A DNA stretch of 34,640 bases from Gemmatimonadaceae bacterium (GTDB taxonomy: Bacteria; Gemmatimonadota; Gemmatimonadetes; Gemmatimonadales; Gemmatimonadaceae). Below are positions 5,399-22,178 of this stretch, in pieces (positions within the stretch are counted from its first letter, which is position 1; every line of letters starts with the position of its first letter). Below the pieces are notes generated by a model. It worked only from the letters and a program-made list of their open reading frames with translations. It made no database searches and was not told the DNA's origin. The stretch is taken from positions 1 to 34,640 of the forward strand of contig JANYIN010000023.1 in NCBI GenBank assembly GCA_025362035.1, written 5' to 3'. Position numbers and translations under genes: made by a program.

Positions 5399-6535
5399 TC
5401 ACGTGCGCCCCACGCCCGCGAGCAGTCGATAGAGATCCGAGATCATCGGTATCACGGCCGCCGCCGTGAATCGCGATCGGGCAATTTGCTGACCGGCGTG
5501 TCCCATTTGCGCCCTCAACATGGAACTGTTGAGTAGTCGCTCGAGTGCGCTGGCGAGACCGGGAACATCGTTCGAATCGATCAGAAGCCCATTGACACCA
5601 TGCTCCACGGAGTCCGGCACCCCACCCACGGACGTCGCGACAACCGAACGCGCTGCGGCCATCGCCTCGACGATGGAATTCGGAAAGCCCTCGCTCAGCG
5701 AACACAATACCGAAATATCGAAGAGCCGATGGGGATTCGGAAGATTGTCCTGCATGCCGACGAACCGCACGATCTGGCCAAGGTTTAGGTCTGCGGTGCG
5801 CGCTTCGAGCGCTGCGCGCTCGGGGCCCTCTCCCATCACGACCAGAACGAGATTGGGGAAGCGCGGCTGAAGGAGGGACATGGCGTCGAGCAGCATCCGG
5901 TGATTCTTGATCGCCCGCAGATTCGCGACGATGCCGACAACCAGTGCCTCGGCCGGCAACGCGAGCGCAATGCGCATCTGCGCGAGCCACGAAAGTTCTG
6001 GAAGGTCGAATGCCGCCTCATCGACAAAATTCGGTATGACGACGATCCGCCGCGCCGGAACGTCATCAACGGAAGCCAGCGAGGCGCCGACCACTGCGCT
6101 GTTCGCGAGCACACGGTCGGACAGGCGGTACGCAATCCGGTTGCCCACGCCGTGCGCGGTGCTGATGCTGCCCCAACGCTTGCTGGTGATTACAGCGCGA
6201 GTGCCGCCCAGCCTCGCCCACGCCCCGGCGAAGACGTTCGCGTACCGGTCGTGAGCATGGACGACGTCGACTCGGTCTCGATGCAGGAACCGCATGAAAC
6301 GCCACCCCTGAGCGATCATGCTGCTCCCGTACAGGCTGCGTACCGGAAAGACGTCGATCGGTACACCCGCCGCCTCGAAGCGCGGCCGCAGGGCACCGTC
6401 TCCTCGAAAGCAGGCCACCGACAGCTTGAACATGGAACGGTCGAGGCGCTCTGCTATGCGCACCGCGTTCATTTCGGTGCCACCAACGCCGAGGCTATCG
6501 AGGCAGAAGACGACACGAACCGGACGACGCGACAT
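5399..6535 (-). CDS. GT4 family glycosyltransferase
   Basis: Retaining GT-B glycosyltransferase of 378 aa, probably adding one sugar to the EPS repeat unit at the inner membrane. I chose the ATG at 6535 because the family N-terminus begins there: RVVFCLDSLGVGGTEMNAVR has the Gly-rich acceptor loop. The extra 38 upstream codons look like non-coding sequence. The middle has VVIPNFVDEAAF and VLVVMGEGPERAALE. The C-terminal nucleotide-sugar site is LSEGFPNSIVEAMAAARSVVAT, with the E-x7-E pair typical of GT4, followed by GGVPDSVEHG. It lies between the large Big_2/beta-helix gene (142 bases upstream) and the acyltransferase (48 bases downstream), all on one strand. Sugar specificity is unknown. 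Confidence 0.9.
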   Translation of the reverse strand: MSRRPVRVVFCLDSLGVGGTEMNAVRIAERLDRSMFKLSVACFRGDGALRPRFEAAGVPIDVFPVRSLYGSSMIAQGWRFMRFLHRDRVDVVHAHDRYANVFAGAWARLGGTRAVITSKRWGSISTAHGVGNRIAYRLSDRVLANSAVVGASLASVDDVPARRIVVIPNFVDEAAFDLPELSWLAQMRIALALPAEALVVGIVANLRAIKNHRMLLDAMSLLQPRFPNLVLVVMGEGPERAALEARTADLNLGQIVRFVGMQDNLPNPHRLFDISVLCSLSEGFPNSIVEAMAAARSVVATSVGGVPDSVEHGVNGLLIDSNDVPGLASALERLLNSSMLRAQMGHAGQQIARSRFTAAAVIPMISDLYRLLAGVGRT

Positions 6536-6677
6536 GTGAGCGGTACTCTGGTGCGGTGAACAAGACGGTCGCAGCCGCGAGCACGCCCTCCATGCGTCGC
6601 CGGTCCGACGCCCCTTCGCTATACCGCGCTCAGCGCCGCCGGTTCCCAAGCGTGTCCTGGCGATCGACCGCCGGAGG

Positions 6678-9600
6678 TCAGGGAACGATGACTCCGGCAG
6701 TCGCCGCGTTGACCCTGTCGATGTCGGCGCCGACGTCGCGTCCGTCCGAGCCCCTGCTCTTCAACATGCTGTTCGGCGCGAGATGGAAATCCAGGCCCGC
6801 CGCGTTTACGAACCCCACCGAAGACAAGCTCGCCGGATAGAAGCCGATGGTAGGATAGCCTACCGACGTCACTGTCGGAAGCGCATTGGCGATGAAGTAC
6901 CCCTCGGGATTGAACTGGAGCAGCGTCGCGGTCCCGGGACTCAGCCCAGGACCCTTCACCCCGTAGAGGCCCCCGCCGACGATGTTGTCTCGCATGCTGA
7001 GGCGGACCGGCGGTGTCAGTGAAGGCCCCCCAAACGTCACGGCGGAGTTCGTCGGGCTCACCACCGTGTTGTGGACGATGGTGATATCGGTGGGATTCTG
7101 ATTGATCAGAAAGCCACGTCCATCTCCGTTGAACGTCGGAGCCACATCGATGTTGGCGACGACGTTGTCCTGAATCGTGATTCGCTGCAGCGGGAAGTTC
7201 GTGACGTTCGGATCCGGATCGGCGGACAGCACGAAGCCGGCGCCAGTGTTCATGATGATGTTGTAGCGGAAGGTGATGTCCTGCGTGCCGCACCAGGGAC
7301 AGCCGCCGCTCTGGTTTGTGGACTTCAGATTGACGGCACTTCCTCCCTGTCCGTCCTGCCAATTATTCTGGAAGATGTTACCCTCGACGAGCGTGCGCTT
7401 CGACGATTTCGACTCGTAAAGATTCTTCACCAACCACACGCCCTTCCAGGCGACCGGCTTGAAGAAATGATTGTGTCGAATTTCGATGTCGCTCGGCACG
7501 AGGTTCTGGATGTCTGGATCGGAGCCGCCGAAGCTGAGATTTTCGGTGGACGCCTCGAGATAGTTGTTCACGATCTTGTAGGGGCCTGGACCGTTCCACC
7601 CCGCGATCGCTTGCGCGTCAGCGCCCGAGTCGTGGATCTCGCTGATGTACGAATCGATGATCGCTGTTGACGCGGACTGCAGGCTGATGGCACGGCGAAC
7701 GAATTGCGTCGGTGTGCCATGGATGAAGACGCGATCGAGCACCAGGTCATGCGCCACCAGCGGCAAGCTCGTCTGGCCGCCCCCGCCGCCATCGCCGAAG
7801 CGAATGAGACCGGTATTGCCCGTGTTCGTCGGCGACACCGAGATCTCGATTCCGATGATGCGATAGTGATGGGCACCAAGAACGGTATTGAAGGCGCCTT
7901 GATTCGTTGGGCTCAGGACAATCGGCAACTGCGCCGCCGCCGCGATAGCGGGTGTCATGCGCGACCCCTCAGGCGGCAGAAGCGTGGTGTTCAGCGGACG
8001 GATCGTGATCCACTTCGTGCTGCTGGTGTTCTTGTTTTGAAGCAGGAAGTTGCCGGTGAACGTCGCACCATTGGCCAGCGCCACCACATCGCCCGGTTGT
8101 GCCGCGTTGAGAGCCGCCTGGAGGTTGCCACCGGCATTGACCGTAATGACGCTGCCACCCACATCAGGTGCCGGAGGCGCAGCGGTATTCATGAAGACCT
8201 GCGGGAGCGCCGCCCCGGCTTCCAGCGGGTGCCCTTGGGTATTGAACACGATGCTGCCACTCACCGTCGGCGTATTCGTATACGTCGTCGCGGTAATGGT
8301 GACGGGGCCGGCGATGCCCTTGCCGACGATCGACACCAGGCCAGTTGGTGATACCGTTGCCTGGGCGGGATTGCTCGTCGACCACCCGATCGGAGCGCTC
8401 AGCACCGGATTCCCGTTCACGTCCAGGATCTGCGTCGTTAGCTGGGTCGTCTGGCCCCATAGCAACATGGTGTTGGCGTTCGACACCGAAATGCTCGCGA
8501 TGGGCGGAATGGTGACCGTGATGAGGATGATGGCCGTTCTTCCCTCGCTCGATGCAACAATGCCGCCCGATCCCGGGCCAATCGCCGTAATCAGTCCCGT
8601 TGCCGCATCGACCGTGGCAACTGCCGGGGTGACGTAGGACCACGCCAGTGCTCTACCGGTCAACACGCTGCCGGTCGTATCGCGCAAGACGGCCACCGCC
8701 TGCGTCGTGCGACCGGCAACCAGTGTCGTGCTTCCGACGGAAATCGTAATCGTCTTGACGGGAGGCGGTATGACGACCACCGTCGCAGTGCCTACGGTTC
8801 CGGAGTTGGTGGCTGAAATGACGGCCGTTCCCACTCCGACCGCGGACACCACGCCGATAGAGTTCACGATGGCAACCGCGGGACTCGAGCTGGACCAGGT
8901 GATCGGCGAAAGTGATGTGATGACCGTGCCCGTCGAATCGCGCAGCGACGCTGTCGCCTGGACGACGTTGCCGGGACTCAGCGTGTCGGGATTGGCGAGA
9001 CTGACGAAGACGGTGACGGTCTTTGGCGGTTGATTGGATATCGCGCCAACCTGTACGGACAAGCTCCCGACCTTTCCGCCGCTGGTCGCGCTGATCAGGG
9101 CGGTCCCGGGGGCAACACCCGTGATCACCCCGCTCGACGTGACGGTCGCGATGTTCGTCGCACTCGATGACCATGTGAATGCGGTGCCGACCAGCACGTT
9201 GCCAAGCGTATCGTGTGGTATTGCAACGGCAGGCGTCGATTGACCGGGACTCAGTGCTGCAACGAGCGTGGACACAGCAATGGTCGCCACCGGCAACGCT
9301 GAGGAACTACCAACAGTCAGGGAAGCGCTCCCGCTCACGCCACCGCTCGAAGCGGACACCACGACGGAGCCGAGCGCAATGCCAGTCAGTACTCCCAGCG
9401 GCGAAACGGTCGCGACCGACGGGTTCGAGCTTGTCCAGAGGATCGGTCGATTGGACAGCACGGCACCGGTGGAATCTCGCGCGGTTGCCGTGACCTGAGT
9501 CGTCTGCCCGATCGCAATCAGCGGGACGCTCACGACCACGGCAATCGACTTGACCGAGGATGGCGCGAGGGAGACCACGACGGTGGCGGTACCGGTGACG

Positions 9601-10193
9601 CCACCGACGACGGCGTCGATCTTCGTGGTACCGGCGGACACGCCCACGACGATTCCTCCAGGCGACACAGTGACAATGGCGGTATTACGACTCGACCAGG
9701 ACGCAACGCGTCCGACGAGCACATTGCCCACGGCATCCACGGGCACGGCCACTGCGGCAACAGAATCGCCGACAAAGAATGCCGGTGCCACGATGACGCT
9801 CACCGCGTTGACTGCAACAGGATTGACCGTGATCGTCACGGATGCGGCCAGTCCGCCAGCCGTCGCCTGGATGGTGGCGATGCCCGAGCTACGGCCGACG
9901 ACGACACCAGTGGCCGATACGCTGGCGACCGCAGTGTCCGAACTGCTCCAGACGACTGCAACAGAGGTCACGGGCTGGCCAGATGCATCGCGCACTGTCG
10001 CCACGAGGCTGAGTGACGTGCCAATCGTGAGGACGGGAGTGGCCGGAGGAGCGATGGCAATCGCCGCCGGTATGCCAGAAAAGCTGGCGCCGACGATGCC
10101 CCCATTTGGCGACGGCGCCGTCAACTCGCCGCTACTGCATGCAACCGCCAGGATACCCAGCGCCAACAAGCTTCTCCTCGATACCGTTTGCAT
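6678..10193 (-). CDS. Large lipoprotein: seven Big_2 (Ig-like) repeats plus right-handed beta-helix
   Basis: Surface or periplasmic protein of 1171 aa. The ATG at 10193 has a strong GGAGGAGG site 4 bases upstream. The N-terminus, SRRSLLALGILAVAC, combines a twin-arginine-like start with a lipobox-like end (Cys 19). From about residue 40 to 650 there are seven Ig-like units of about 80-90 residues, each with a W-S/T-S core and an A-x-V/I-x-A ladder (examples: VWSSSDTAVASVS, LWTSSNPSVATVS, GWSTSNPAQATVS). This is the bacterial Ig-like group 2 pattern. From about residue 675 a beta-helix follows that closely matches the 545-aa protein encoded at 2442-4079, including CPWCG (7287-7301). Big_2 repeats usually act as stalks or adhesins, so the helix may be displayed at a distance from the membrane. 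Catalytic function is unknown. Confidence 0.9.
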   Translation of the reverse strand: MQTVSRRSLLALGILAVACSSGELTAPSPNGGIVGASFSGIPAAIAIAPPATPVLTIGTSLSLVATVRDASGQPVTSVAVVWSSSDTAVASVSATGVVVGRSSGIATIQATAGGLAASVTITVNPVAVNAVSVIVAPAFFVGDSVAAVAVPVDAVGNVLVGRVASWSSRNTAIVTVSPGGIVVGVSAGTTKIDAVVGGVTGTATVVVSLAPSSVKSIAVVVSVPLIAIGQTTQVTATARDSTGAVLSNRPILWTSSNPSVATVSPLGVLTGIALGSVVVSASSGGVSGSASLTVGSSSALPVATIAVSTLVAALSPGQSTPAVAIPHDTLGNVLVGTAFTWSSSATNIATVTSSGVITGVAPGTALISATSGGKVGSLSVQVGAISNQPPKTVTVFVSLANPDTLSPGNVVQATASLRDSTGTVITSLSPITWSSSSPAVAIVNSIGVVSAVGVGTAVISATNSGTVGTATVVVIPPPVKTITISVGSTTLVAGRTTQAVAVLRDTTGSVLTGRALAWSYVTPAVATVDAATGLITAIGPGSGGIVASSEGRTAIILITVTIPPIASISVSNANTMLLWGQTTQLTTQILDVNGNPVLSAPIGWSTSNPAQATVSPTGLVSIVGKGIAGPVTITATTYTNTPTVSGSIVFNTQGHPLEAGAALPQVFMNTAAPPAPDVGGSVITVNAGGNLQAALNAAQPGDVVALANGATFTGNFLLQNKNTSSTKWITIRPLNTTLLPPEGSRMTPAIAAAAQLPIVLSPTNQGAFNTVLGAHHYRIIGIEISVSPTNTGNTGLIRFGDGGGGGQTSLPLVAHDLVLDRVFIHGTPTQFVRRAISLQSASTAIIDSYISEIHDSGADAQAIAGWNGPGPYKIVNNYLEASTENLSFGGSDPDIQNLVPSDIEIRHNHFFKPVAWKGVWLVKNLYESKSSKRTLVEGNIFQNNWQDGQGGSAVNLKSTNQSGGCPWCGTQDITFRYNIIMNTGAGFVLSADPDPNVTNFPLQRITIQDNVVANIDVAPTFNGDGRGFLINQNPTDITIVHNTVVSPTNSAVTFGGPSLTPPVRLSMRDNIVGGGLYGVKGPGLSPGTATLLQFNPEGYFIANALPTVTSVGYPTIGFYPASLSSVGFVNAAGLDFHLAPNSMLKSRGSDGRDVGADIDRVNAATAGVIVP

Positions 10194-11326: not shown

Positions 11327-12736
11327 ATGACCCAACTCTACGCGGCATTCCTCGTTGGAATCCCACTACTGTGGCTTGGTGCCAGGCACGCCGAATCCGC
11401 GCGGGTACGGCAGATGCTGTACCTCGCAGCGAGCTACCTGTTCTATCTCACCTTCGGTCTCGGTTCATTCGCGGTTCTTCTGGCGAGCACGATGTTCAAC
11501 TTTTGGTGGGGATCGGTCATTCGCCGTCGACCGAGCACCTGGATGTTGTGGATCGGAATACTCCTCAACGTTGCCCTCCTCAGCACGTTCAAGTACCTCC
11601 CGCAAGTCGCGGCGAATGTTGCTCCAACGCTGCCACTCGCGAGCCCCGTCGCTCATCTGGCGCTGCCCATCGGCATTTCGTTCTGGACGTTTCAGGGGCT
11701 CAGCTACCTGTTTGACCAATTCCGTGAAGAACGGCTCGATCCCACACTGATCGAGTTCATGCTCTATATGGGCTTCGCGCCCACGGTGCTCTCCGGACCG
11801 ATCTGTCGTCTGCCCGAGTTGTTGCCGCAGTTCCGTGACACGTCCAAGGCGACGTGGGCCAACGTGGTCGACGGTGCGCGAGGCATTTGGGTTGGCGTGC
11901 TCATGATCACGTTGGCGCGTTTTCTCGGAGGCGGCTTTGATGGTCATGGCGTGAACTGGGGATTCGATCACGCCGGCCTGCGACTCGGTGCCGCCGACGT
12001 GTGGCTCTTGCTGGTCGGGTATGGATTCCAGCTCTTCTTTGATTTTGCCGGCTACTCCCGCGTCGTGATCGGCATCGCGCAACTGTTCGGAATTCGCCTG
12101 CCGGAGAACTTTCGACACCCTTACCTGTCCACGACGCTTGCGATGTTTTGGACGAGGTGGCACATGTCGTTGTCGTTCTGGATTCGCGACTATCTCTTCA
12201 TGCCGCTGGCGACGCTGCGCCGGGAGGCATGGTGGCGCAATGCGATGCTCGTGTTCTCCATGATCGTGTTTGGTCTGTGGCACAAGGCCAGTTTCCTGTT
12301 CTTGCTGTGGGGAACGTATCAGGGCCTGTTACTGCTCGCGTATCGCCTCCTCCAGCAGCGGCAGCGTCGCCTCGGCGTGTCCATCTCCGGTGTTGCCGGA
12401 TCGTTTCTGTCCTGGCTCTTGACGTTTGGCCTCATTACCCTCGGCTGGATCATGTTCCGGGCGCGCGACGGCTCGCAAGCCATGTATCTCCTCGGTCAAG
12501 CCGTAACGCCGTTTGCGTCACAAGGCATGACGCTGCCGGCAAACTTTGCGCTGTTCATCGTCGGCGTCGTCGCTGCGTACTTTGTCGTCGCGGCGGCAAG
12601 CCGGCGTTATGCGCAGGGCGGCGCAGTCCTCGGCGGCTTTCCGCTTGGTGTTCGATACGTGTGCTACGCTGGAATCTTCTACTTCGCCGTGTTCCACGCA
12701 GCCGATCCACAATCATTCATCTACTTCCAGTTCTGA
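11327..12736 (+). CDS. MBOAT family membrane O-acyltransferase (AlgI/DltB-like)
   Basis: Polytopic membrane protein of 469 aa that transfers acyl groups across the inner membrane to an extracytoplasmic polymer, as AlgI does for alginate and DltB for teichoic acid. The ATG at 11327 is chosen because hydrophobic MBOAT sequence starts right after it; the 54 codons upstream in frame look non-coding. Features include the early LYLAASYLFYLTFG helix, ISFWTFQGLSYLFDQFRE, FFDFAGYSRVVIGIAQLFGI, FWTRWHMSLSFWIRDYLFMPL (His 279), and FGLWHKASFLFLLWG with the expected catalytic His 319. No Shine-Dalgarno site is evident. The stop overlaps the next gene's ATG as TGATG. The carrier-protein gene two genes downstream suggests an acyl-ACP rather than acetyl-CoA donor; this is inference. 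Confidence 0.92.
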   Translation: MTQLYAAFLVGIPLLWLGARHAESARVRQMLYLAASYLFYLTFGLGSFAVLLASTMFNFWWGSVIRRRPSTWMLWIGILLNVALLSTFKYLPQVAANVAPTLPLASPVAHLALPIGISFWTFQGLSYLFDQFREERLDPTLIEFMLYMGFAPTVLSGPICRLPELLPQFRDTSKATWANVVDGARGIWVGVLMITLARFLGGGFDGHGVNWGFDHAGLRLGAADVWLLLVGYGFQLFFDFAGYSRVVIGIAQLFGIRLPENFRHPYLSTTLAMFWTRWHMSLSFWIRDYLFMPLATLRREAWWRNAMLVFSMIVFGLWHKASFLFLLWGTYQGLLLLAYRLLQQRQRRLGVSISGVAGSFLSWLLTFGLITLGWIMFRARDGSQAMYLLGQAVTPFASQGMTLPANFALFIVGVVAAYFVVAAASRRYAQGGAVLGGFPLGVRYVCYAGIFYFAVFHAADPQSFIYFQF

Positions 12737-13818
12737 TGCGATCAGCGGGAAGAGGTGTTCGCATATCCGTTGCGGTGGTCGTGTTTGCCGTGTCGCTCGA
12801 GTTCTGGGCCCGTGTCGACGACTACCTCACGTATGATGCGCCGTTCTGGGGCAGGTACAATAGCCAGATGCTCTACATCAGAGACACGTTGGGCCAACGA
12901 GGGAAGCCAAACGCTCGGTATCGCAAGTGGAAGCTCAACGAGCTCGGATTCCGCGGTCCGGCGATGCGGCACGATCGAATCAACGTTCTGTGCTTTGGCG
13001 CGTCGGAGACGTTCGGTCTGTACGAGAGCGAAGGGCAGGAGTACCCCCGTTTGCTCGAACGAAAGTTGAATGAGCGTGCTGGCAGGGACACGTTTCAGGT
13101 CGTGAACGCCGCCTATCCGGGAGAGTCCGCGTTCACGGCGGTGGTACGAGTACCAGAGCTGATCGATGCGATTCATCCGCGCATTGCAATTGTGTACCCG
13201 ACGCCGGCGGACTACATCTGGCTCCCGTATCTGCACCCGGCCGAGTCGCCACCGCAATCGGCAGAGGCCCCGTTTGACTTTCGCATGGGTGAGCGCCTCC
13301 GCACGTTCGCCAAGGGACTTCTTCCCGAAGGCATACAGAGCCGGCTCCGCGAGCAGGAAATTCGGCGGGGCGCGGCCGCGTTCGCGGTAATGGACCGGCT
13401 GCCCGATGAAAACGTTCGGCAGTTTCATGACGACGTTGCGCATCTGGTACAGACGCTCCGAGACCGTGGCGTGCTTCCGGTCGTCGTCACGCATGCGAGC
13501 GCGTTCGGTCCAACGCTCAGCGAGGATGATCGCCGCCTACTGATCAGCTGGCGAAAGTTCTATCCAATGCTGAAAGAGGACGGCTTTCTCGATATGGAGC
13601 GGCGGATGAATGAGACGTTGCGCGCGATCGCGACGGAGCAGGGCGTCCCGCTCATCGATGCCGCCGCGCAGATTCCGGCGACTCGACAGAACTTTGCCGA
13701 TTTTGTACACTTCACAAACCGGGGAGCAGAGGTCATGGCGGAGAAGCTCACGCGGGGGCTGATGCCAATTGTTCAAGCCCAATTGCAGCCATCCTCGACC
13801 CCGAAAGGCGCTGAATGA
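12736..13818 (+). CDS. SGNH-hydrolase-like membrane-anchored protein, MBOAT partner (AlgJ/DltD-like role)
   Basis: Protein of 360 aa with one N-terminal membrane segment (about residues 8-23) and a large domain that should face the periplasm. The ATG at 12736 overlaps the MBOAT stop; the longer frame upstream is a shadow of the MBOAT gene. SGNH features are a block-I-like FGASETFG with nucleophile Ser 90 and a C-terminal block-V-like DFVHFTNRG with Asp 322 and His 325. Between them are VVNAAYPGES, which may include the SGNH Gly block, and VYPTPADYIWLPY. Known MBOAT systems pair the membrane enzyme with such a protein (AlgJ/AlgX, DltD, PatB) that completes transfer to the polymer. The stop overlaps the next ATG as ATGA, supporting one translational unit. 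Confidence 0.88.
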   Translation: MRSAGRGVRISVAVVVFAVSLEFWARVDDYLTYDAPFWGRYNSQMLYIRDTLGQRGKPNARYRKWKLNELGFRGPAMRHDRINVLCFGASETFGLYESEGQEYPRLLERKLNERAGRDTFQVVNAAYPGESAFTAVVRVPELIDAIHPRIAIVYPTPADYIWLPYLHPAESPPQSAEAPFDFRMGERLRTFAKGLLPEGIQSRLREQEIRRGAAAFAVMDRLPDENVRQFHDDVAHLVQTLRDRGVLPVVVTHASAFGPTLSEDDRRLLISWRKFYPMLKEDGFLDMERRMNETLRAIATEQGVPLIDAAAQIPATRQNFADFVHFTNRGAEVMAEKLTRGLMPIVQAQLQPSSTPKGAE

Positions 13819-14738
13819 CGTCGGACTTCGTTCTCGAGCTGGGCATGCCACACCTCGGGCGGAATAATCTTTCCGAGAACGCGTTGTTCAAGGCAATCGG
13901 CAACGATCGGTGGCGAACGATCGAGGAAATTGGAGGAGTCCCGACCGGGCTGATTCGGGACGATGCCGATTCGCGCCTCTACGCCACCTTCTTCTTTCTG
14001 GAGGTACACTCGACGCCGGAGCATCCGCTGGCCGCGCACGGCGAGAACCAGAGCATGTCGTTCAGTACGGACCTCTCACACTTCGACAAAGTGTATCTCG
14101 ATGGCCACCATCGCTTGGTGGGCGACACGGATTTTTGGGTCCGCAGCAGTAACGTGTTCATCTACCAGGAGCGCGGGCCTTCGAAGCTCTCAATGTCCAT
14201 TCCTGCCAACGTCGACTTCGCAGGTGTGCCGGCACTCTCGGCGCCGCCGGACTCACTGTCGCTTTGCCGGCTGGCCCGAACGAACGGCACATTTTTCGAG
14301 CCGGAACCGGACGACATCGGGATATTCGAGGGTGTTCGCGAATACCGGTATCAGTTGGATCCCGACCGCGACATGAACGGCGCTGGCCTCGTCTATTTTG
14401 CGAACTTCATCGCGTTTCTCGACCGCGCAGAGCGCGGTGCCCTCGTCGACCTGAAGCTCCCTATTCCCGAGACGGTACTCGATGCCCGATCGACGTATCG
14501 TCGACGCATCGGGTATTTCGGGAATGCCCAAGCCACGGACACGTTGCGGGTTCTCGTTCGGGCAAGAATGCGTTCGCTTCCGAGCCAGCGGTTCGGCCGC
14601 TTGATTGACCTGGGATTCGACTATCGTATCCTTCGCTCCTCGGACGACAAGGAAATAGTCATCTCGTCGTGTCGAAAGGTCAGTCCCATGGAAGCCGGAT
14701 CAGCCGACGAGGCATGGTTCCAGCAAATGACGTCCTGA
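13815..14738 (+). CDS. LnmK-like double-hotdog acyltransferase/decarboxylase (Pnap_2097-type)
   Basis: Cytoplasmic protein of 307 aa, start fixed by the ATGA overlap with the SGNH gene. The opening FVLELGMPHLGRNNLSENAL and the following DRW match my recollection of the LnmK / Pnap_2097 family N-terminus. The second half has YFANFIAFLDRAERGAL, a hotdog-helix signature resembling thioesterase-like proteins. LnmK from leinamycin biosynthesis loads methylmalonyl from CoA, decarboxylates it and leaves propionyl on an acyl carrier protein, using an active-site Tyr; Tyr 56 in RLYATFFFLEV is a candidate equivalent. An acyl carrier protein gene follows 35 bases downstream, which fits this chemistry. 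No ketosynthase, AMP ligase or other loading enzyme is present. Family assignment is from pattern recognition; the acyl group is inferred. Confidence 0.75.
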   Translation: MTSDFVLELGMPHLGRNNLSENALFKAIGNDRWRTIEEIGGVPTGLIRDDADSRLYATFFFLEVHSTPEHPLAAHGENQSMSFSTDLSHFDKVYLDGHHRLVGDTDFWVRSSNVFIYQERGPSKLSMSIPANVDFAGVPALSAPPDSLSLCRLARTNGTFFEPEPDDIGIFEGVREYRYQLDPDRDMNGAGLVYFANFIAFLDRAERGALVDLKLPIPETVLDARSTYRRRIGYFGNAQATDTLRVLVRARMRSLPSQRFGRLIDLGFDYRILRSSDDKEIVISSCRKVSPMEAGSADEAWFQQMTS

Positions 14739-14764
14739 CGCCCGGACCAACACCAACGCGATTT

Positions 14765-14770
14765 GGAGGA
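14765..14770 (+). promoter_or_regulatory. Shine-Dalgarno site of the acyl carrier protein gene
   Basis: GGAGGA ends 3 bases before the ATG at 14774. This gene has its own ribosome site, whereas the three genes before it have none evident. That would allow the carrier to be made in excess of the enzymes, and it decides the start against the longer open frame from 14669. Confidence 0.6.
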
Positions 14771-14773
14771 GCA

Positions 14774-15031
14774 ATGGCACATAGCGCGGAAGGTCAAGCA
14801 CTCATCGACTACTTGAAAACGCGTATACTTCCGAAGGGCGCCCCCGACATCACCGAGGATACACCGCTTGTGTCGTCCGGTCTGGTCGATTCATTTGCGA
14901 TGATCGAGATACTGATGGAGGTCGAGAAGGTGACGAAGCGCCGAATTTCGCCGGGGAAGGTGGGCGCGAAGGACATGGATACCGTCACTCTCATGCTCGC
15001 CACCGCTGAACGCGTGGGTGTACCGCGCTGA
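14774..15031 (+). CDS. Acyl carrier protein (phosphopantetheine carrier)
   Basis: Small carrier of 85 aa. The phosphopantetheine attachment motif is LVSSGLVDSFAMIEIL, with Ser 40 as the modified residue in the DS(F/L) context after a Gly-Leu-Val lead. Helix I (about residues 7-19) and the acidic segments fit the four-helix carrier fold. The start is set by the GGAGGA site. Helix III/IV residues continue to DTVTLMLATAERVG. It stands next to the LnmK-like enzyme and in the same run as MBOAT and SGNH genes, as DltC does with DltB and DltD. No fatty-acid or polyketide synthase genes lie nearby, so it is unlikely to be the fatty-acid AcpP. Its cargo is inferred, not seen. Confidence 0.9.
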   Translation: MAHSAEGQALIDYLKTRILPKGAPDITEDTPLVSSGLVDSFAMIEILMEVEKVTKRRISPGKVGAKDMDTVTLMLATAERVGVPR

Positions 15032-15244
15032 TTGCGCTCGTAGTCACAGGGCGGTGTGCGCGCACCGGCGGAGCGGCTCGCGACGTGAATATCCATGATC
15101 GCTTGACGCGTTGCTGGGATAACACGGCGGGGTCATGCCGAGGCGCTACCAGCAACAGCCGCGAACCGTCGGTGCTCGAGCGTGGCTCTCTCCCCGCCTG
15201 GAAGCAGCGCTGCTCGCGGGGCCGCGGTAACGGCCTACTTGCAC

Positions 15245-16051
15245 ATGCGGATTCCGCCATCTGCCGACGAGGTTGATTTGGAACTATCCCTTTGGGACGA
15301 ACTGCAGTATCGTCTCTTACGACGCATCGCTCCTGCCGCCCCCACCTACATGACGGGAGCCGCGTACGCCAGCAGAAGCAAGCTCGAGGTGTTGCTCGGC
15401 AAGGATCTGCTCGAGGGAATTCGCGGGAAGGACGTGCTCGATTTCGGATGCGGCCAAGGGGTCGAAGCGGTTGAGATGGCCCGTGTTGCCCGGTCGGTAT
15501 TCGGGCTGGATATCCTACCCTCATCGCTGGAGAAGGCCCGCACGCGTGCCGAGACGGCAGGGGTCGCGGATACGTGTACCTTTGGGACGACTCCTCCGTC
15601 GAGGAAGGTGGACGCCATCATCTCCCTCGATTCGTTCGAGCATTTCGACGATCCGGCCGACATCTTGAAGCAGATGTATGACCTGCTTCGCCCTGGTGGG
15701 CAGGTCATTGTGAGCTTCGGGCCGCCGTGGTTCCATCCATTCGGTGGGCATCTGTTTTCTGTCTTTCCATGGGCCCACGTTGTCTTCAGCGAGGCGGCTC
15801 TCCTCGCATGGCGATCCGGGATAAGGTCGGATGGCGCCACGCGGTTCCGCGAAGTCGAAGGAGGGCTGAATCAGATGACCGTCAAACATTTCGAGGAGCT
15901 CGTGGCAGACAGTCAGTTCCGTCTCAGTCATTTGGAGGTCGTCCCCATTCGGAAGTTGCGACCGGTCGCGAACAGGCTCACGCGCGAGTTCACGACATCG
16001 GTGGTGCGCTGTGTTCTGGAGCGCGCGGCAACGGGCAATGCAAATGTCTAG
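15245..16051 (+). CDS. Class I SAM-dependent methyltransferase
   Basis: Cytoplasmic methyltransferase of about 268 aa. Motif I is DVLDFGCGQGVEAVE near residues 63-77, followed by an acidic end of strand 2 (VFGLDILPSSLEKA), an IISLDSFEHFDDP motif-IV region and LLRPGGQVIVSFGPPW, all in the usual order for a class I Rossmann methyltransferase of the Methyltransf_11 kind. The ATG at 15245 was preferred; a GTG at 15182 extends the frame 21 codons with no sign of conservation. It follows the carrier protein after 213 bases, so it may have its own promoter. In an EPS locus it could methylate a sugar, the lipid-linked intermediate or an acyl group. The substrate is not evident. Confidence 0.82.
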   Translation: MRIPPSADEVDLELSLWDELQYRLLRRIAPAAPTYMTGAAYASRSKLEVLLGKDLLEGIRGKDVLDFGCGQGVEAVEMARVARSVFGLDILPSSLEKARTRAETAGVADTCTFGTTPPSRKVDAIISLDSFEHFDDPADILKQMYDLLRPGGQVIVSFGPPWFHPFGGHLFSVFPWAHVVFSEAALLAWRSGIRSDGATRFREVEGGLNQMTVKHFEELVADSQFRLSHLEVVPIRKLRPVANRLTREFTTSVVRCVLERAATGNANV

Positions 16052-16133
16052 GATCCGGATGAACCGGCTGGTTTCGTGGGCCGCACGACACAACCGGAGA
16101 ACATTCGGGAGATGAACCGTTGCGCGTCCCATC

Positions 16134-17573
16134 ATGGCTGATTTGACGTCGTCAGGCATCACACAGATGCCTTGGGCGGGATACAGCGCATTGTACTACG
16201 AGTCGCCGGCGGCTGCGCGGGACGGGTCGCCGCGACTCATGCTCATCACCTACAACTTTCCACCCGATCCATCCGTCGGCGGCCTACGCTGGCAGGAAAT
16301 GGCGAGGCATCTCGCCGCGCTAGGTTGGGCGGTAGACGTCATCACGCGTGACTTTCGCGGAGTGCACGGGCTGGATGGTGAACGCCTCCAGCGGCTTCCT
16401 CGCGGCGTCCGCATCTTCTCCGTGCCAAGCAGCGAGCCGCTCGCCAGTCGCGCCCACAAATTCGCGTGGCCGTTCCTGCGCAAATGGATACCCGAGCGCA
16501 CCACCAGCGGCGTCGATGCGCTGACGCGAGAACAGATGGCGGCGCAACGCGGAGGGCGAACGGTGTTGCGCGCCTATCTGGCCTGGATCGAGTTTTCGCG
16601 CGACTTGAAGTGGGCGCGGGCTGCCGCCCGGCTTGCCACCATCATGATGTTGACGGAAAAATATGTGACCGTCGTCAGTTCCGGCCCACCCCACATGGCG
16701 CACGAGGCAGGGCGTCTCGCCGCTCGCCGGACGGGAACGCCGCACGTTGTGGACATGCGTGACCCGTGGAGCCAGAACCAGTTCATCAAGGAAGCGGTCG
16801 CGAGTCCTGTCTGGCTTCGCCTGGCGCGAAAGTACGAGAGCCGAGCAGTGGCGAATGCAGCGCTGCTGACCATGAACACGGAGTCGGCGTGCGATGCGCT
16901 GCGTGACGCGTATCCGGACCACGCCGCAAAGATTCACGTCGTGCGAAATGGCAGCGATGACGAACCGCTTCCGCCTCCGCGCCGCGACGGATGCTTTCGG
17001 GTCAGATTTGCCGGATCGATCTACATGGATCGCGATCCGCGCATGCTGTTTCGTGCGGCGCGCCGCGTCATTACGGAGCTCGGACTGACTCCAGCACAAT
17101 TCCTGATCGAGTTTACGGGACAGGCCAATCAGTACCAGGGGCGACCCACAATTCAGCTCGCCGCGGAAGAGGAAATCGCGGACTTTGTTCGGATCAGAGG
17201 ACAGGTACCGAGAAAACGCGTGTTGGAGTTCCTGGCTGGGGCGACTGTACTGCTCAGCCTCCCGCAAGGAACTGAATTTGCCATCCCCGCGAAGATCTAC
17301 GAGTACGTCCGATTGCCCGCGTGGCTACTGACCACGGCGTCACCGAACAGCGCCACCGCACACCTGCTTCACGGGACCGAGGCCGATGTGGTCGAGCCGT
17401 CCGACCTGGATGGAATGACTCGCGTGCTTCGCCATCGCTACGAACAGTTCACGAATGGGGTGCAGCCGCTGCCCGTCGGTCGAGATGGTCGATTTGACCG
17501 TTCGGTCCAGGTGCAGGCGTTCCTGGGCCTCATCGAGCAATACTGTGCGGCTCCGTCGCGATCTGAACGGTAG
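16134..17573 (+). CDS. GT4-like glycosyltransferase
   Basis: GT-B fold glycosyltransferase of 479 aa. The N-terminal domain has LMLITYNFPPDPSVGGLRWQ, the classic loop of the WcaI/WbuB-like group, then VDVITRDF. The linker region has VVDMRDPWSQ. The C-terminal domain has VVRNGSDDEP, FAGSIYMDRDPRMLF, and FAIPAKIYEYVRLPAWLL, where the Glu before Tyr-Val is the expected donor-binding residue. The ATG at 16134 was taken because the frame is open from it; internal ATGs (for example before LITYN) remain possible, since the first 30 residues are not family-like. It ends 2 bases before the convergent epsI-like gene. It likely adds one sugar of the EPS repeat. Confidence 0.87.
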   Translation: MADLTSSGITQMPWAGYSALYYESPAAARDGSPRLMLITYNFPPDPSVGGLRWQEMARHLAALGWAVDVITRDFRGVHGLDGERLQRLPRGVRIFSVPSSEPLASRAHKFAWPFLRKWIPERTTSGVDALTREQMAAQRGGRTVLRAYLAWIEFSRDLKWARAAARLATIMMLTEKYVTVVSSGPPHMAHEAGRLAARRTGTPHVVDMRDPWSQNQFIKEAVASPVWLRLARKYESRAVANAALLTMNTESACDALRDAYPDHAAKIHVVRNGSDDEPLPPPRRDGCFRVRFAGSIYMDRDPRMLFRAARRVITELGLTPAQFLIEFTGQANQYQGRPTIQLAAEEEIADFVRIRGQVPRKRVLEFLAGATVLLSLPQGTEFAIPAKIYEYVRLPAWLLTTASPNSATAHLLHGTEADVVEPSDLDGMTRVLRHRYEQFTNGVQPLPVGRDGRFDRSVQVQAFLGLIEQYCAAPSRSER

Positions 17574-17575: not shown

Positions 17576-18325
17576 TCAGCGCGACGCCGCCCGGATCGTG
17601 TCAGGTTCGGCGAGCACCGTTTTCATCGGCAACTCGTCCACGGACTTGGGGAGGACGCGGGCAACGTCCGTAAGGAGTGGCCCGCCCACGGATTCGCCAA
17701 GTCGTGCCGCATCGGCGTAGGCGCGAGCGAGTGAGCCAGCGTCCAGCTGATTTGCGTTGGGCACGAAGACCACGATTCGAACGAGCGCCTCCTCGGTGTG
17801 TCCTTCCAACGCCGCGTCGCGTAGCAGATTCCACTTGACCGCGTATTCGCTGGCAACGATCCGCCCGCGCCCCTGATACCAGTAGAGCACCAGCGCCTGT
17901 GTCACGCCATTCTTGAGCAGGTATTTGTTCACGACATGAGACCGGCCCGCAACCGAGATGCTCCCAGTGTCCGCGCTCAGGATCTCCCACCCCGCGCCCG
18001 GCAGACAGTTTTTCGGTGAGTGCATCGTGTGGCCCTGGGCCTGACGGTCGTAGTATCCGACGTAGGTCGAAAATGCCGGCGTCGAATCCGTTGGCCCTCG
18101 GAATTGCCAGAACACACGCGCGACGTAATCGGTCATCCCGGCGATCCTTCGTTCCTCATCCCCAATGACCTGGGTGTTCGCTTTGTACCCGGAGACCTCG
18201 GGGAGTACGCTGGACAGCGGACCCGCGAGCGGCACTTCTCGCTGCGATCGCGTGGACCACACGAGCAGAAAGCCCCCCAGCAACACCGCGCCGGGCAGAT
18301 AGCGGCGAAGCACGCCCTTATCCAT
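17576..18325 (-). CDS. epsI: EpsI-type exosortase-associated protein
   Basis: Protein of 249 aa with one N-terminal membrane helix (about residues 10-24) and an extracytoplasmic domain. The HSPKNCLPGAGWE segment is the hallmark of the EpsI / exosortase C-terminal-associated family, and the YWYQGRGR stretch further down fits. The ATG at 18325 overlaps the exosortase stop by 8 bases, which fixes the start; the longer frame to 18502 only shadows the exosortase. EpsI partners exosortases either fused at their C-terminus or as a separate gene, as here. Its exact biochemical role is not established; the conserved His-Ser-Pro and Cys suggest a functional site. Confidence 0.88.
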   Translation of the reverse strand: MDKGVLRRYLPGAVLLGGFLLVWSTRSQREVPLAGPLSSVLPEVSGYKANTQVIGDEERRIAGMTDYVARVFWQFRGPTDSTPAFSTYVGYYDRQAQGHTMHSPKNCLPGAGWEILSADTGSISVAGRSHVVNKYLLKNGVTQALVLYWYQGRGRIVASEYAVKWNLLRDAALEGHTEEALVRIVVFVPNANQLDAGSLARAYADAARLGESVGGPLLTDVARVLPKSVDELPMKTVLAEPDTIRAASR

Positions 18326-19376
18326 TGAGGGCGACCGGCCGTGCGAAGAACTTCTCGATCGTCGCACCGAGCCAGGCGACTGCACCCATGCATGATAGCG
18401 AGACGAGGAATAGCAACCACCCTTCCGTGACATGCATGAATCCCTTGCCAAGCGCGGGATCGACGAAGTACACCAGGAAGCCGGTGAGGAACACCCGGAC
18501 ACCGTTGATCACGACGGCAATGGGAACCGCCAATGCGACAAGCAACGCACGAGTGGCGGGCTTCTGCAGGAACAATCCGCCAAGCAGTACGGACAGACTC
18601 AACAGCGCCGTGAGCGAACGAAGGCCGCTGCAGGCTTCGGTGACGAACAACTCGTTGCCCGGAATGCGAATGACGTTTCCGGTGAGGAGCACCGGGACCT
18701 GCCGCATCTTCAGCAACGCTGCTCCCATCTGCGACGCCTTGAACTGCAGCGGCAGTGCCAAGGCTTGCGTGACGAGCTCTGGCAGGGGGATGGAGAGGGA
18801 ACCGAGTACGAATGGCAGCCACCAGTGCAGCAGCTGCCGAAAGCCATAGTGGTACACGGTGAGCGCGGCGAGTGCGAGCACCATGGAAGCCCGCATCGTG
18901 AAGATCTCGGCGGCCAGGCCGGACATGTATCGCAGCAAGACGGCGATCGCGAGCATTACCAGTCCCAGCGACTCGTTCGGAGTGGCGTCTTTGCGGATGC
19001 CGCTCTTGTACGCGAGCCAGATCGCAACCGGCGCGAGGAGAAGGCCGTGTCCGGCTTCCGGCAACACCCACCAATCGCGCACGAGCAGCGTGAGCGGCTG
19101 CAGGAAGAGAGCAGCGAACGCGACGACCGTGACCACCGAGGGGAGCACCAGACGCGCGCTGGCACGAGGATCGACGAGCAAAGCGCCAACGCCTCTCCGC
19201 GCTGACTCGAGGTGCGCTGAGTACCAGTCTCCCGTCGTTGGGCGCGCGTGGGTCACGTAGGTCCTGCCATGGAGGAGGATATCAATATGAAACGCATGCC
19301 GCTGAGCCGAAAGCAAGGCGGACCAGCGTTGGACCACGCCATCAGGACCACACGTCCCACCGACCCCGGACGCCAT
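18318..19376 (-). CDS. Exosortase (membrane transpeptidase)
   Basis: Polytopic membrane cysteine protease/transpeptidase of about 352 aa, predicted to cleave PEP-CTERM-like sorting signals and anchor the proteins. The catalytic set is present: Cys 249 in VTEACSGLRSL, Arg 294 in INGVRVFLTG and His 315 in GFMHVTEGW. About eight hydrophobic helices start near residue 76. The start is uncertain. The frame is open to a TTG at 19388; the ATG at 19376 overlaps the upstream GT2 by 35 bases, and a GTG at 19337 would begin just after the GT2 stop. The exosortase is coupled to epsI by an 8-base overlap (ATGGATAA). No PEP-CTERM protein is visible in the window, so its substrates are elsewhere. Confidence 0.9.
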   Translation of the reverse strand: MASGVGGTCGPDGVVQRWSALLSAQRHAFHIDILLHGRTYVTHARPTTGDWYSAHLESARRGVGALLVDPRASARLVLPSVVTVVAFAALFLQPLTLLVRDWWVLPEAGHGLLLAPVAIWLAYKSGIRKDATPNESLGLVMLAIAVLLRYMSGLAAEIFTMRASMVLALAALTVYHYGFRQLLHWWLPFVLGSLSIPLPELVTQALALPLQFKASQMGAALLKMRQVPVLLTGNVIRIPGNELFVTEACSGLRSLTALLSLSVLLGGLFLQKPATRALLVALAVPIAVVINGVRVFLTGFLVYFVDPALGKGFMHVTEGWLLFLVSLSCMGAVAWLGATIEKFFARPVALNG

Positions 19377-20457
19377 TGACGGTAGCAACGACGATAGAAC
19401 TCTGCATCGCCACTCCCCACGCGATCTGAGCGCGCAGCACTCGGCGCACGTGGGGAACCAGACAAACCACCAACACCGCTAGACCGATGCCGGTCAGCAG
19501 CGGCACGCGGAGGGGACTCGCGAGAACACGCGCCGCGACTGTCCAAGCGACACTCAACGCCAGAATCGTGGCAAAGTAAGGGGTCAGCAGGCGCAGTAGC
19601 TTATGAAAGACGAACTGAAGCCAAATGGGATTCCGAAATGGATTCAAGATCCCCGGGAGCCAGGCGCAGACTTGTATGACACCAGTGAGCGTTCGCACTT
19701 TGCGACGGTATTCCTGTCCGGCAGCGAAGCGACGGACGTCGTACGCCCGCGCGCGATCAGTAAACCCCACACGCCACCCGTCGAGTACCAAGCGCATGGG
19801 CAGGAACAGGTCGTCCAGGATGAGCCCGGCGGGAAGGGGCCGCCAGAGCGCCCGCCGCATGGCGTAAATAGCGCCGGTGACGCCGACGCTTGAATGTAAG
19901 CGCGACTCCCACAGTCGGAGCCACCGTTCATACCGCCAGTACCGCTCAGCGAGGTTCAACGAGCCCTCCGCGCCGGGCAGATCGAGCATTCCGGACACCG
20001 CGCCCATCCGGTCGTCGCCGAGCTGTTCCACCAATTCCGGAATGGCGTCCGGATCGAACCGTTGGGCGGTGTCGGTAAAGACCAGAATCTCATTCCGAGC
20101 CGCTCGGATTGCCGCGTTCAACGTTGCGGCCTTCCCACCGGGCGCGTCGCCGAGAAGTACAGTCACGCGGGGGTCGATGCCCTGCAGTTGATCCATGGTG
20201 GCCTTGGCCCGAGCCGAGTCGAGCGCGACAATCACTTCGAGCCGTCCCGCGGGGTATGCCGTGCGGAACACGTCCGCAAGGCGAGCGCGGATAGCGGACG
20301 CATCATCGCTGCTGGCGATGGCGACTGACACGGTGGGCGCCGCGCCAGACCTCCCTGTGCTCCGCCTGCGTCGCAGTCCGCCAAGCGCGCGAACCGCAAG
20401 CGGGTAGCCGCCCCAAATGGCGGCCAGGACAAGCGTGGAAAAGACGCCAAACTGCAT
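19342..20457 (-). CDS. Membrane GT2 family glycosyltransferase
   Basis: Inverting GT-A enzyme of about 371 aa. A hydrophobic N-terminal segment (about residues 5-24) is followed by the GT2 catalytic domain: VIVALDSARAK, then GGKAATLNAAI with EILVFTDTAQRFDP (the D-x-D region), VSGMLDLPG, GAIYAMRR, LDDLFLPMRLVLDGW and QEYRRKVR, a variant of the QxxRW site. The C-terminal 110 residues are two to three membrane helices. The order resembles processive or initiating membrane GT2 enzymes of EPS loci. GTG (20460) and ATG (20457) are adjacent. The ATG forms a TGATG overlap with a nine-codon mini-ORF, so I use it. It is first of the run GT2-exosortase-epsI. Confidence 0.88.
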   Translation of the reverse strand: MQFGVFSTLVLAAIWGGYPLAVRALGGLRRRRSTGRSGAAPTVSVAIASSDDASAIRARLADVFRTAYPAGRLEVIVALDSARAKATMDQLQGIDPRVTVLLGDAPGGKAATLNAAIRAARNEILVFTDTAQRFDPDAIPELVEQLGDDRMGAVSGMLDLPGAEGSLNLAERYWRYERWLRLWESRLHSSVGVTGAIYAMRRALWRPLPAGLILDDLFLPMRLVLDGWRVGFTDRARAYDVRRFAAGQEYRRKVRTLTGVIQVCAWLPGILNPFRNPIWLQFVFHKLLRLLTPYFATILALSVAWTVAARVLASPLRVPLLTGIGLAVLVVCLVPHVRRVLRAQIAWGVAMQSSIVVATVNGVRGRWDVWS

Positions 20458-20483
20458 CACCGGCTCTTCCCCTCCGCAGCCAT
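20457..20483 (-). CDS. Possible 8-codon leader mini-ORF coupled to the GT2 start
   Basis: ATG at 20483, with GGGAG (20489-20493) five bases upstream, reads eight codons (MAAEGKSR) to a TGA that overlaps the GT2 ATG. Its GAGGGGAAGAG codons also form the purine-rich stretch ahead of the GT2. It could be a coupling leader or chance, and no protein-level evidence is possible at this length. Confidence 0.2.
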   Translation of the reverse strand: MAAEGKSR

Positions 20484-20807
20484 GGATACTCCCGCCCGCC
20501 GAATGTGCCCTCGCCTCACAAACTCTCGTTCGGCTTGCGGATCAAGCACAGGAGTGAAAGGCGACATGAGTCTCCAATAGCGGTAGCTGGAGAGACGCGA
20601 TGCCCACCGAATCAGTCACTGACTCTGGTAGCAAGCAAAAGGCCGCGGCGCTCTCTTTATAACCTGTTGTAGCGCAAAGATTTATGCGACGAATCCACCG
20701 AAGTGACCAACGAGTGTTGCATCCAAACCACAGCACTCGCGGTCCCGGTGCGTCAGTACTGCGATCACCCGTGCGGTGTTCCAGGACAGTCGGCAACCCC
20801 GAGGTAA
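20484..20807. other. Intergenic region before the GT2-exosortase-epsI run
   Basis: About 325 bases between the UDP-sugar dehydrogenase stop and the exosortase operon, both read leftward. It is somewhat richer in AT than its surroundings around 20640-20690, where a minus-strand TTGGTC-N18-CATAAA could serve as a weak promoter. That pairing is speculative. A 3' hairpin for the dehydrogenase is not obvious. The open frame 20542-20796 looks non-coding. Confidence 0.35.
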
Positions 20808-22175
20808 CTACACCGCAAATGAACCCGTGCCGGACAGAGAAATGACAGTGGCGCGGCCTTGGTTGGTCTTTGAGGTCGCATTCCGAGTATCGACCACCAA
20901 GGCCGCATTATCCACGACGAACTGATAGTCCACTGTGCGGTGGTCGGTCACGATGACCACGACATCTGCCGCCGCCAGGGTTGTCGCGCTGAGTTCCACA
21001 CCGAATCGAAGACTCGGCTTGACGCCTGGAGCCGGCGTGTCGTGACCGTCGTCGTCGCGAATGGACGCGACATACGGATCATGGAAGGAGACAGTGGCGC
21101 CATGCGCCTCCAGCAAACGGATGACGTCGAGAGCCGGGCTCTCGCGCACGTCATCGATATCCCGCTTGTACGCCACGCCGAGGATGAGCACACCGCTGCC
21201 GTTCATCGGCTTCTTCACGGCGTTCAGTGCGTGCGCGATCTTTTCGACCACGAAGTTCGGCATGGCGGTGTTGATTTCGCCGGCGAGGTCGATGAAGCGC
21301 GTCTTGTAGTTCAACGATCGCATCTTCCAGGCGAGGTAGTGCGGATCGAGTGGAATGCAGTGTCCGCCAATGCCGGGCCCCGGCGTGAACTTCATGAACC
21401 CAAAGGGCTTGGTGGCGGCGGCGTCGATGACTTCCCATACGTTCACGCCCAGCTTGTCGCAAACGATGGCCATCTCGTTCGCCATGGCGATATTCACCGA
21501 CCGAAACGTGTTCTCGAGCAACTTCACCAACTCAGCCGTTTCGGTGGAGGTGACCGGGACGATCGTGTCAATGCATGACGCATAGAGCGCCGTGGCGACT
21601 TCGGTGCACGCCTTCGTGATGCCACCGACCACCTTGGGCGTGTTCTTGGTATGGTAGACTGGGTTACCCGGGTCGACGCGCTCCGGGCTGAACGCGATGA
21701 AGATGTCCTGCCCGACGGTGTAGCCGGCAGCAGTCAGCAGGGGAAGCACGACTTCGCGGGTGGTGCCCGGGTACGTGGTGCTCTCGAGCACCACGAGTAG
21801 ACCTGGGTGTGCCACTTGCGCGACGGTCTCGGCGGCGGCCTGCACGTAACTCATGTCCGGATCGCGCGTCTTGCCCAACGGCGTGGGGACGGCAATGGAC
21901 AGTGCATCGGCCGTTTTGAGCTCCGCGGCGTGTGTCGTCGCGCGGAATTTCCCGCTCTTCACGAGCGCTGCGACATCCGCAGCCGGAACGTCCTGAATGT
22001 GCGAGTCGCCGGCATTGAGAAGACTGCACACTCGTTCGCTGACGTCGAATCCGACGACCGTGAATCCCTCCTTCGCGAACTCGACCGCCAGAGGCAGCCC
22101 GACGTAACCCAATCCGATGACACCAACGATGGCCGAGCGGTTTTCGATGCGGTTGAGAAGCTGGTCTTTCATCAT
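20808..22175 (-). CDS. UDP-N-acetylhexosamine / UDP-glucose 6-dehydrogenase family (WecC/WbpA-like)
   Basis: Nucleotide-sugar dehydrogenase of 455 aa, oxidising a UDP-hexose or UDP-HexNAc C6 to the uronic acid with two NAD+. The Rossmann motif is VGVIGLGYVGLPLA. It continues with VPTPLGKTRDPDMSY, which is more like the WecC/WbpA group than UDP-glucose dehydrogenase, then ESTTYPGTT and SPERVDPGN. Catalytic Cys 273 sits in GPGIGGHCIPLDPHY, and the C-terminal domain has GVAYKRDIDDVRESP. ATGs at 22175 and 22172 are adjacent. The C-rich CTCACCCCCC immediately before the start is not a ribosome site. It stands alone as a transcription unit upstream of the exosortase run and gives the locus a second uronate supply beside the GDP-mannose enzyme. 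Confidence 0.92.
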   Translation of the reverse strand: MMKDQLLNRIENRSAIVGVIGLGYVGLPLAVEFAKEGFTVVGFDVSERVCSLLNAGDSHIQDVPAADVAALVKSGKFRATTHAAELKTADALSIAVPTPLGKTRDPDMSYVQAAAETVAQVAHPGLLVVLESTTYPGTTREVVLPLLTAAGYTVGQDIFIAFSPERVDPGNPVYHTKNTPKVVGGITKACTEVATALYASCIDTIVPVTSTETAELVKLLENTFRSVNIAMANEMAIVCDKLGVNVWEVIDAAATKPFGFMKFTPGPGIGGHCIPLDPHYLAWKMRSLNYKTRFIDLAGEINTAMPNFVVEKIAHALNAVKKPMNGSGVLILGVAYKRDIDDVRESPALDVIRLLEAHGATVSFHDPYVASIRDDDGHDTPAPGVKPSLRFGVELSATTLAAADVVVIVTDHRTVDYQFVVDNAALVVDTRNATSKTNQGRATVISLSGTGSFAV

Positions 22176-22178
22176 GGG

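Follow-up and report, generated by a model that had tools for sequence, protein, structure and literature searches.

LnmK makes propionyl-acyl carrier protein (ACP) from methylmalonyl-CoA with decarboxylation; its substrate is reportedly (2R)-methylmalonyl-CoA, which is named in the title of a cited paper on LnmK chemistry. In the leinamycin (LnmK/LnmL) and largimycin (LrgK/LrgL) systems, an LnmK-family enzyme adjoins a carrier, and the propionyl-carrier feeds HMG-CoA-synthase-type β-alkylation of a polyketide; LrgK itself was proposed by analogy to make propionyl-ACP (PMC9396626). Transmembrane acylation of surface polymers by MBOAT-SGNH pairs is fed differently. In the Dlt system (DltA-DltB-DltC-DltD-DltX; teichoic acid D-alanylation), the MBOAT receives its acyl group from the carrier protein (PMC12148441 and PMC11035591), and a separate microprotein, DltX, bears the shuttle motif (PMC12148441). 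PatA uses acetyl-CoA without a carrier. The acetyl group is moved to the Tyr of its FXYXXF motif and from there presented to the SGNH protein, and MBOAT-SGNH pathways except Dlt are stated to work without a carrier, evidently because acyl-CoA is used (PMC12148441). Here we describe four adjacent genes encoding an MBOAT, an SGNH protein, an LnmK-like protein and a carrier (Table 1) in a 34,640-nucleotide contig of a Gemmatimonadaceae bacterium (JANYIN010000023.1; the whole of it is called the window below), which is contig C108 of the 4.64-Mb genome G000, assembled in 212 contigs.

We estimate at about 60% the probability that the four genes form one cassette, which acylates an exported sugar polymer via an LnmK-loaded carrier, most likely with propionyl. 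Judged from sequence, the cassette appears to be a hybrid, in which a PatA-type MBOAT-SGNH relay is combined with a Dlt-type carrier, presumably loaded by an LnmK-type enzyme. A preliminary description of this DNA had interpreted the locus as a Dlt-like acylation module with an LnmK-type loader; this interpretation is partly supported, being right in outline and wrong on the Dlt-like membrane part.

As in Dlt, an MBOAT, an SGNH protein and a small carrier are encoded together. Unlike Dlt, the cassette has an LnmK-like enzyme in place of DltA (there is no AMP-binding gene among the four), its MBOAT scores below the DltB cut-off and has a built-in shuttle Tyr, which DltB gets from DltX, its SGNH protein has no DltD-family match, and the genome contains a separate dlt operon. 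With PatA/PatB and AlgI-type systems the cassette shares an MBOAT with the invariant His and a C-terminal FXYXXF motif, as well as an anchored SGNH protein with Ser-Asp-His, but it encodes a carrier and a loader beside the pair. The adjoining of an LnmK-family enzyme and a carrier, with the catalytic Tyr kept, is common to the cassette and the leinamycin and largimycin systems, whereas the partner here is an MBOAT-SGNH pair and no polyketide gene was recognised. No non-Dlt MBOAT system fed by a carrier, LnmK-loaded or not, was found described in the open literature, most subscription journals being outside this coverage.

The Four Genes of the Cassette

All four genes lie on the + strand, head to tail and tightly packed. 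The ATG of the SGNH gene (12736) shares one base with the TGA stop codon of the MBOAT gene, the LnmK-like gene overlaps the SGNH gene by 4 bases, and the carrier gene starts 35 bases after the LnmK-like gene. Gene calls, Pfam and NCBIfam placed the genes at the coordinates, and with the overlaps, that had been claimed for them. The residues singled out in the preliminary description (MBOAT His319, SGNH Ser90/Asp322/His325 and carrier Ser40) were located as well, and the triad and Ser40 are invariant in three of three orthologues, the carrier orthologues being 78-86% identical.

Approximate dN/dS values of 0.08-0.26 were obtained for the four genes in three pairwise comparisons, in which synonymous sites were near saturation; all four genes are under purifying selection. 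Chance or artefact as the origin of the arrangement is ruled out by the conserved gene order together with purifying selection. Nothing from a promoter and terminator scan of 10100-16200 was used.

Table 1. Features of the cassette and of its surroundings in the window.
Feature	Coordinates	Strand	Evidence
PatA/AlgI-type MBOAT, 469 aa; His319; C-terminal FIYFQF (Tyr466)	11327..12736	+	Pfam MBOAT, DltB alignment, FXYXXF motif
SGNH protein with membrane anchor, 360 aa; Ser90-Asp322-His325; putative transferase	12736..13818	+	Lipase_GDSL_2, invariant triad, SGNH fold matches
LnmK-like protein, 307 aa; Tyr56; proposed decarboxylative carrier loader	13815..14738	+	TIGR04098, LnmK structures, invariant Tyr
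Acyl carrier protein, 85 aa; Ser40	14774..15031	+	PP-binding near cut-off, weak phmmer matches, orthologues
Acyl_transf_3, glycosyltransferase, Big_2 protein (cluster context)	4082..10193	-	Pfam; relatives in G004
Methyltransferase and glycosyltransferase with family-4 N-domain (cluster context)	15182..17573	+	Pfam
EpsI, exosortase, GT2, nucleotide-sugar dehydrogenase (cluster context)	17576..22205	-	Pfam, NCBIfam

LnmK-like Protein and Carrier

The LnmK-like protein has no Pfam match but scores 124.4 bits on TIGR04098 (cut-off 100), and the copies from two other genomes of the genus pass the same model at 137.8 and 125.8 bits. On TIGR04099, which describes the Pnap_2097 family, the three copies remain under the cut-off of 125 (76.4, 87.6 and 67.7 bits), although the two families are homologous and the Tyr is kept in both. 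The assignment to the LnmK family proposed in the preliminary description is right, the TIGR04098 cut-off being passed.

Solved LnmK chains were found by phmmer at E 2.8e-7 and, with a profile of 14 homologues, at E about 4e-52. By counting, Tyr56 corresponds to position 62 of chain 6x7l in a phmmer stretch that is not significant alone; the profile alignments pair it with that same Tyr of the solved chains, which we take to be the catalytic Tyr62 of LnmK. An alignment of 14 homologues (the three module copies, two Streptomyces proteins, seven Nit1-cluster proteins and one protein each from Thalassospira and Roseobacter) has six invariant positions: G29, W33, Y56, N188, Y194 and N237. The active-site Tyr expected of an LnmK homologue is therefore present, in 14 of 14 sequences.

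Ser40 of the carrier lies in LVDSF. The protein scores 19.6 bits on Pfam PP-binding, marginally below the gathering score of 20.8, and is far below the cut-off of the DltC model (18.9 vs 68); phmmer matches it to carrier proteins weakly, with a best E of 3.6e-4. Carrier residues F41, I44 and E45, invariant in the three copies, stand at the positions of DltC Met36, Val39 and Glu40. A Glu at such a position is common in carriers, and the match therefore gives weak support. In DltC the three residues touch DltB (PMC11035591).

MBOAT and SGNH Proteins

The cassette MBOAT scores 50.2 bits on Pfam MBOAT (cut-off 27), and its His319 aligns with DltB His336. Its C-terminus, FIYFQF, fits the FXYXXF motif, with Tyr466 as the motif Tyr, and is the same in all three module copies; this acyl-shuttle motif of PatA-type MBOATs had been missed in the preliminary description. 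The motif is present in the three module copies and in five readable carrier-less MBOATs (locus L039 was excluded from the counts for this motif and for the GG loop considered below) and absent from the DltB of the genome. On the DltB model TIGR04091 the cassette MBOAT reaches 159.3 bits against a cut-off of 375, while the genome's own DltB scores 406.6 bits; four MBOATs without a carrier, from this and other genomes of the genus, score 142-166 bits, like the cassette protein. By these scores and its motif, the cassette MBOAT is not a DltB.

The SGNH protein matches Lipase_GDSL_2 at 37.7 bits (cut-off 32.9). It belongs with GDSL families and not with DltD, whereas the DltD of the same genome matches PF04914 at 134.9 bits. 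Its predicted structure, of low-to-medium confidence (pLDDT 62), begins with a helix at residues 4-33 and matches SGNH hydrolases, including acetylxylan esterases; none of the 50 fold matches listed is named as an SGNH protein known to acylate polymers. A search of solved structures with the SGNH profile gave no match better than E 0.017.

The dlt operon of the genome, dltD-dltC-dltA-dltB, lies on contig C161 (locus L042, 2408-6774). Its DltC and DltB are both over their cut-offs; DltA is over one model (518 vs 476) and under another (515 vs 560), and DltD is over the PF04914 cut-off but under TIGR04092 (137.8 vs 150). The same contig also holds a carrier-less MBOAT with an SGNH neighbour (L043). 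Since all three arrangements (dlt operon, MBOAT-SGNH pair without a carrier, and hybrid) occur in one genome, the choice between carrier and CoA donor can be compared across bacterial MBOATs. Six carrier sequences and a carrier motif served as queries against ten MBOAT loci (the window and L037-L045, L039 being only 5 kb long). They picked out carriers at the dlt operon and at the three LnmK modules, but none at the other six loci.

Filing the cassette as a Dlt system was rejected, since there is no DltA-type loader, the MBOAT is under the DltB cut-off and the SGNH protein is not of the DltD family. What remains of the Dlt-like character is the carrier logic; the MBOAT (159 vs 375 bits, own shuttle motif) and the SGNH protein (GDSL, not DltD) do not share it.

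Conservation of the Cassette

The TIGR04098 cut-off was passed in 3 of 149 relatives, all three belonging to the genus of the window. In a phylum set of 395 genomes two passed it, G000 and G004; G006 is missing from the matches in this set, where it was apparently not sampled. A scan of genome contigs gave two loci, L009 and L010, on contigs equal in length to G006 C496 and G004 C3, respectively. There are thus three cassette genomes in all (G000, G004 and G006), from one genus. Matches below the cut-off were found in G020 (22.1 bits, with a stop) and G099 (18.8 bits). A carrier-like match was seen in G064, where tblastn found no other module or cluster gene in the same stretch.

The order MBOAT-SGNH-LnmK-carrier recurs in G006 and G004, that is, in both other genomes with an LnmK gene over the cut-off, as the model of a single module had implied. 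Identities of the window proteins to those of G006 and G004 are 72 and 68% for the MBOAT, 67 and 64% for the SGNH protein, 80 and 67% for the LnmK-like protein, and 86 and 78% for the carrier. Across ten genomes of the genus the MBOAT orthologue (at least 68% identity), the LnmK gene and the carrier gene are each present in the same three.

An exosortase-linked polysaccharide cluster is common to the three genomes, and the cassette block stands at three different points of it. In the window it is placed between a Big_2 protein and a methyltransferase; in G004 it lies beyond an Acyl_transf_3 gene and a beta-helix-like neighbour; in G006 it is near nucleotide-sugar dehydrogenase and chaperonin-10-like genes, with the exosortase on another contig. 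The four genes move as a block, which is good evidence for one function. The cluster exosortase is present in 5 of the 10 genus genomes, one copy having an internal stop, and since the cassette is present in three, it looks optional in the cluster, though the genomes are incomplete.

LnmK Relatives Elsewhere

Neighbourhoods of LnmK relatives on plasmids were read in 17 stretches, comprising 14 of the first 21 records and 3 of the later 58. Ten of the 14 are Nit1/MSMEG_0565-0572 clusters and, in five of these ten, a methylmalonyl-CoA mutase gene directly adjoins the LnmK relative, which supports methylmalonyl-CoA as a usual substrate of the family. In the genome of the window, methylmalonyl-CoA mutase domains are encoded by two genes (732 and 705 bits), both of the N-terminal-domain type and under the full-length equivalog cut-off. 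In the Burkholderiales plasmids L012, L018, L019, L020 and L022, where the Nit1/MSMEG_0565-0572 cluster ends, a Pnap_2097-type gene directly adjoins the methylmalonyl-CoA mutase gene, which suggests methylmalonyl-CoA as the substrate of its product. No MBOAT was found in the Pnap_2097 neighbourhoods.

In S. xanthii and Azospirillum the LnmK relative is near PKS-type genes and carriers. On a Streptomyces globosus plasmid (L056, 5995-12069) an LnmK-like stretch starts a PKS-type protein, with genes for a crotonyl-CoA carboxylase/reductase and a phosphopantetheinyl transferase nearby; the presence of the former makes other alkylmalonyl-CoAs possible.

On the Roseobacter litoralis plasmid pRLO149_63 (L011, 7311-8768), a hexapeptide acyltransferase (LbH) domain is fused to an LnmK domain (157.6 bits). 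As with the cassette, the LnmK domain sits inside a polysaccharide-type cluster; unlike the cassette, it is combined with a hexapeptide acyltransferase instead of an MBOAT, and the stretch contains no MBOAT and no annotated carrier. The fusion is another hint that LnmK is connected with sugar acylation.

Proposed Mechanism and Alternatives

By analogy with the described systems, we infer the chemical steps, the acyl group, the role of the carrier as MBOAT donor and the acceptor as follows. In the cytosol, Tyr56 of the LnmK-like enzyme would receive an alkylmalonyl group from its CoA ester, most likely (2R)-methylmalonyl-CoA; the enzyme would decarboxylate this group with release of CO2 and pass the resulting propionyl to the phosphopantetheine of carrier Ser40. 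At its cytosolic mouth, the MBOAT would pick up the acyl group of the carrier and use His319 to move it to Tyr466 of FIYFQF at the outer face. The membrane-anchored SGNH protein would then accept it on Ser90 and esterify a hydroxyl of the polymer, presumably the polysaccharide built by the surrounding exosortase-type cluster. One can reason that a carrier would keep the abundant acetyl-CoA from competing with a rare acyl group, and that decarboxylation would drive loading without ATP and make it irreversible.

Several observations weigh against this reading. The LnmK-like protein is only 19-21% identical to the two aligned Streptomyces homologues, and in a 17-row tree the three module copies make up a separate deep branch (support 100/99), to which the tree, calculated with a warning of long branches, gives no firm place among the subfamilies. 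An AlphaFold2 model of the protein made from three sequences is poor (mean pLDDT 46), and LnmK chains are absent among its best 50 fold matches listed, so that the family assignment rests on sequence. In tblastn searches with seven MBOATs and the module SGNH protein, no relative was found in any of the 17 plasmid stretches. The link between LnmK and MBOAT is therefore seen only in three genomes of one genus, and the expectation that LnmK/Pnap_2097 genes would be found beside MBOAT and SGNH genes holds for these genomes but not for the plasmid stretches read. The helix with which DltB docks DltC has no clear counterpart in the cassette MBOAT: of the DltB contact residues Met302 is kept, Val305 aligns with Ala and Ile306 falls in a gap. 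By sequence, docking is thus compatible on the carrier side, and the MBOAT side is not clearly conserved. Finally, a 'GG' in a cytosolic loop was expected to mark CoA-using MBOATs; it is present in four of five readable carrier-less MBOATs and missing from the three module copies and DltB, but the fifth carrier-less protein, L041, is also without it. Lack of the GG loop does not, therefore, prove a carrier donor; it is suggestive.

The strongest alternative keeps the cassette and its relay and changes the acyl group. Malonyl-, ethylmalonyl- or another alkylmalonyl-CoA could be used (giving acetyl, butyryl and so on), or transfer could take place without decarboxylation, placing a charged malonyl-type group on the polymer. 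The deep separate branch, together with identities of 19-27% between the module copies and other LnmK subfamilies, indicates that the substrate may differ, and the crotonyl-CoA carboxylase/reductase near the S. globosus LnmK-like domain suggests that other alkylmalonyl substrates occur. Since methylmalonyl-CoA mutase domains are encoded in the genome, and LrgK was proposed to make propionyl-ACP (by analogy; PMC9396626), we regard a different acyl group as possible and clearly less probable than propionyl.

It is also conceivable that the MBOAT-SGNH pair uses acyl-CoA like PatA and AlgI, and that LnmK and the carrier feed a distant lipid or small-molecule pathway, their adjacency being incidental. 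The FXYXXF motif of the CoA-using type and the DltB-model score, which is like that of four carrier-less paralogues, are what such a pair would show. We nevertheless consider this unlikely, as the four genes form an intact block at each of the three insertion points, the MBOAT, LnmK and carrier genes are present or absent together across the genus, and no carrier gene is seen at the six MBOAT loci that lack LnmK and dlt genes. Moreover, Pfam recognised neither a PKS nor an HMG-CoA synthase nor any other user of a carrier among the 20 window proteins scanned (window to 30122).

That the LnmK homologue is instead a hotdog thioesterase or editing enzyme, stripping or proofreading a carrier which a ligase encoded elsewhere loads, is the least probable explanation: the C-terminal half of the low-confidence model is fairly confident and forms a hotdog matching thioesterases, but the LnmK Tyr is invariant, the LnmK model is passed whereas the YbgC thioesterase model is failed (17 vs 141 bits), and the one carrier ligase seen, dltA, is in its own dlt operon, the genome not having been searched for others.

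If the propionyl-carrier cassette operates as proposed, the rule given in PMC12148441, that non-Dlt MBOAT-SGNH pathways work without a carrier, is broken, and LnmK chemistry has a place at the cell surface as well as in antibiotic assembly lines. Polysaccharide decoration would then draw more widely on LnmK-type enzymes as a source of acyl groups, a possibility at which the Roseobacter fusion hints too, and an unusual polysaccharide ester, directly searchable, is predicted. We see the odds as even that the cassette represents a third feeding route for transmembrane acylation of surface polymers, neither Dlt nor acyl-CoA, in which a dedicated carrier and a decarboxylative LnmK-type loader would place propionyl or another non-acetyl acyl group on an exopolysaccharide.

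Surrounding Cluster

The cluster around the cassette includes an Acyl_transf_3 (AT3) protein at 4082-5350 on the - strand, and the polymer may for this reason carry a second acyl group. The exosortase and EpsI (17579-19388, - strand) match two halves of the single-protein XrtD model (VPLPA type), as if split, and both are below the XrtD cut-off. Between the polysaccharide cluster and an ABC transporter, at 22340-22702 on the + strand, there is a gene for a 121-aa protein with a partial chaperonin-10 match (44.7 bits), which is 83-89% identical in two relatives.

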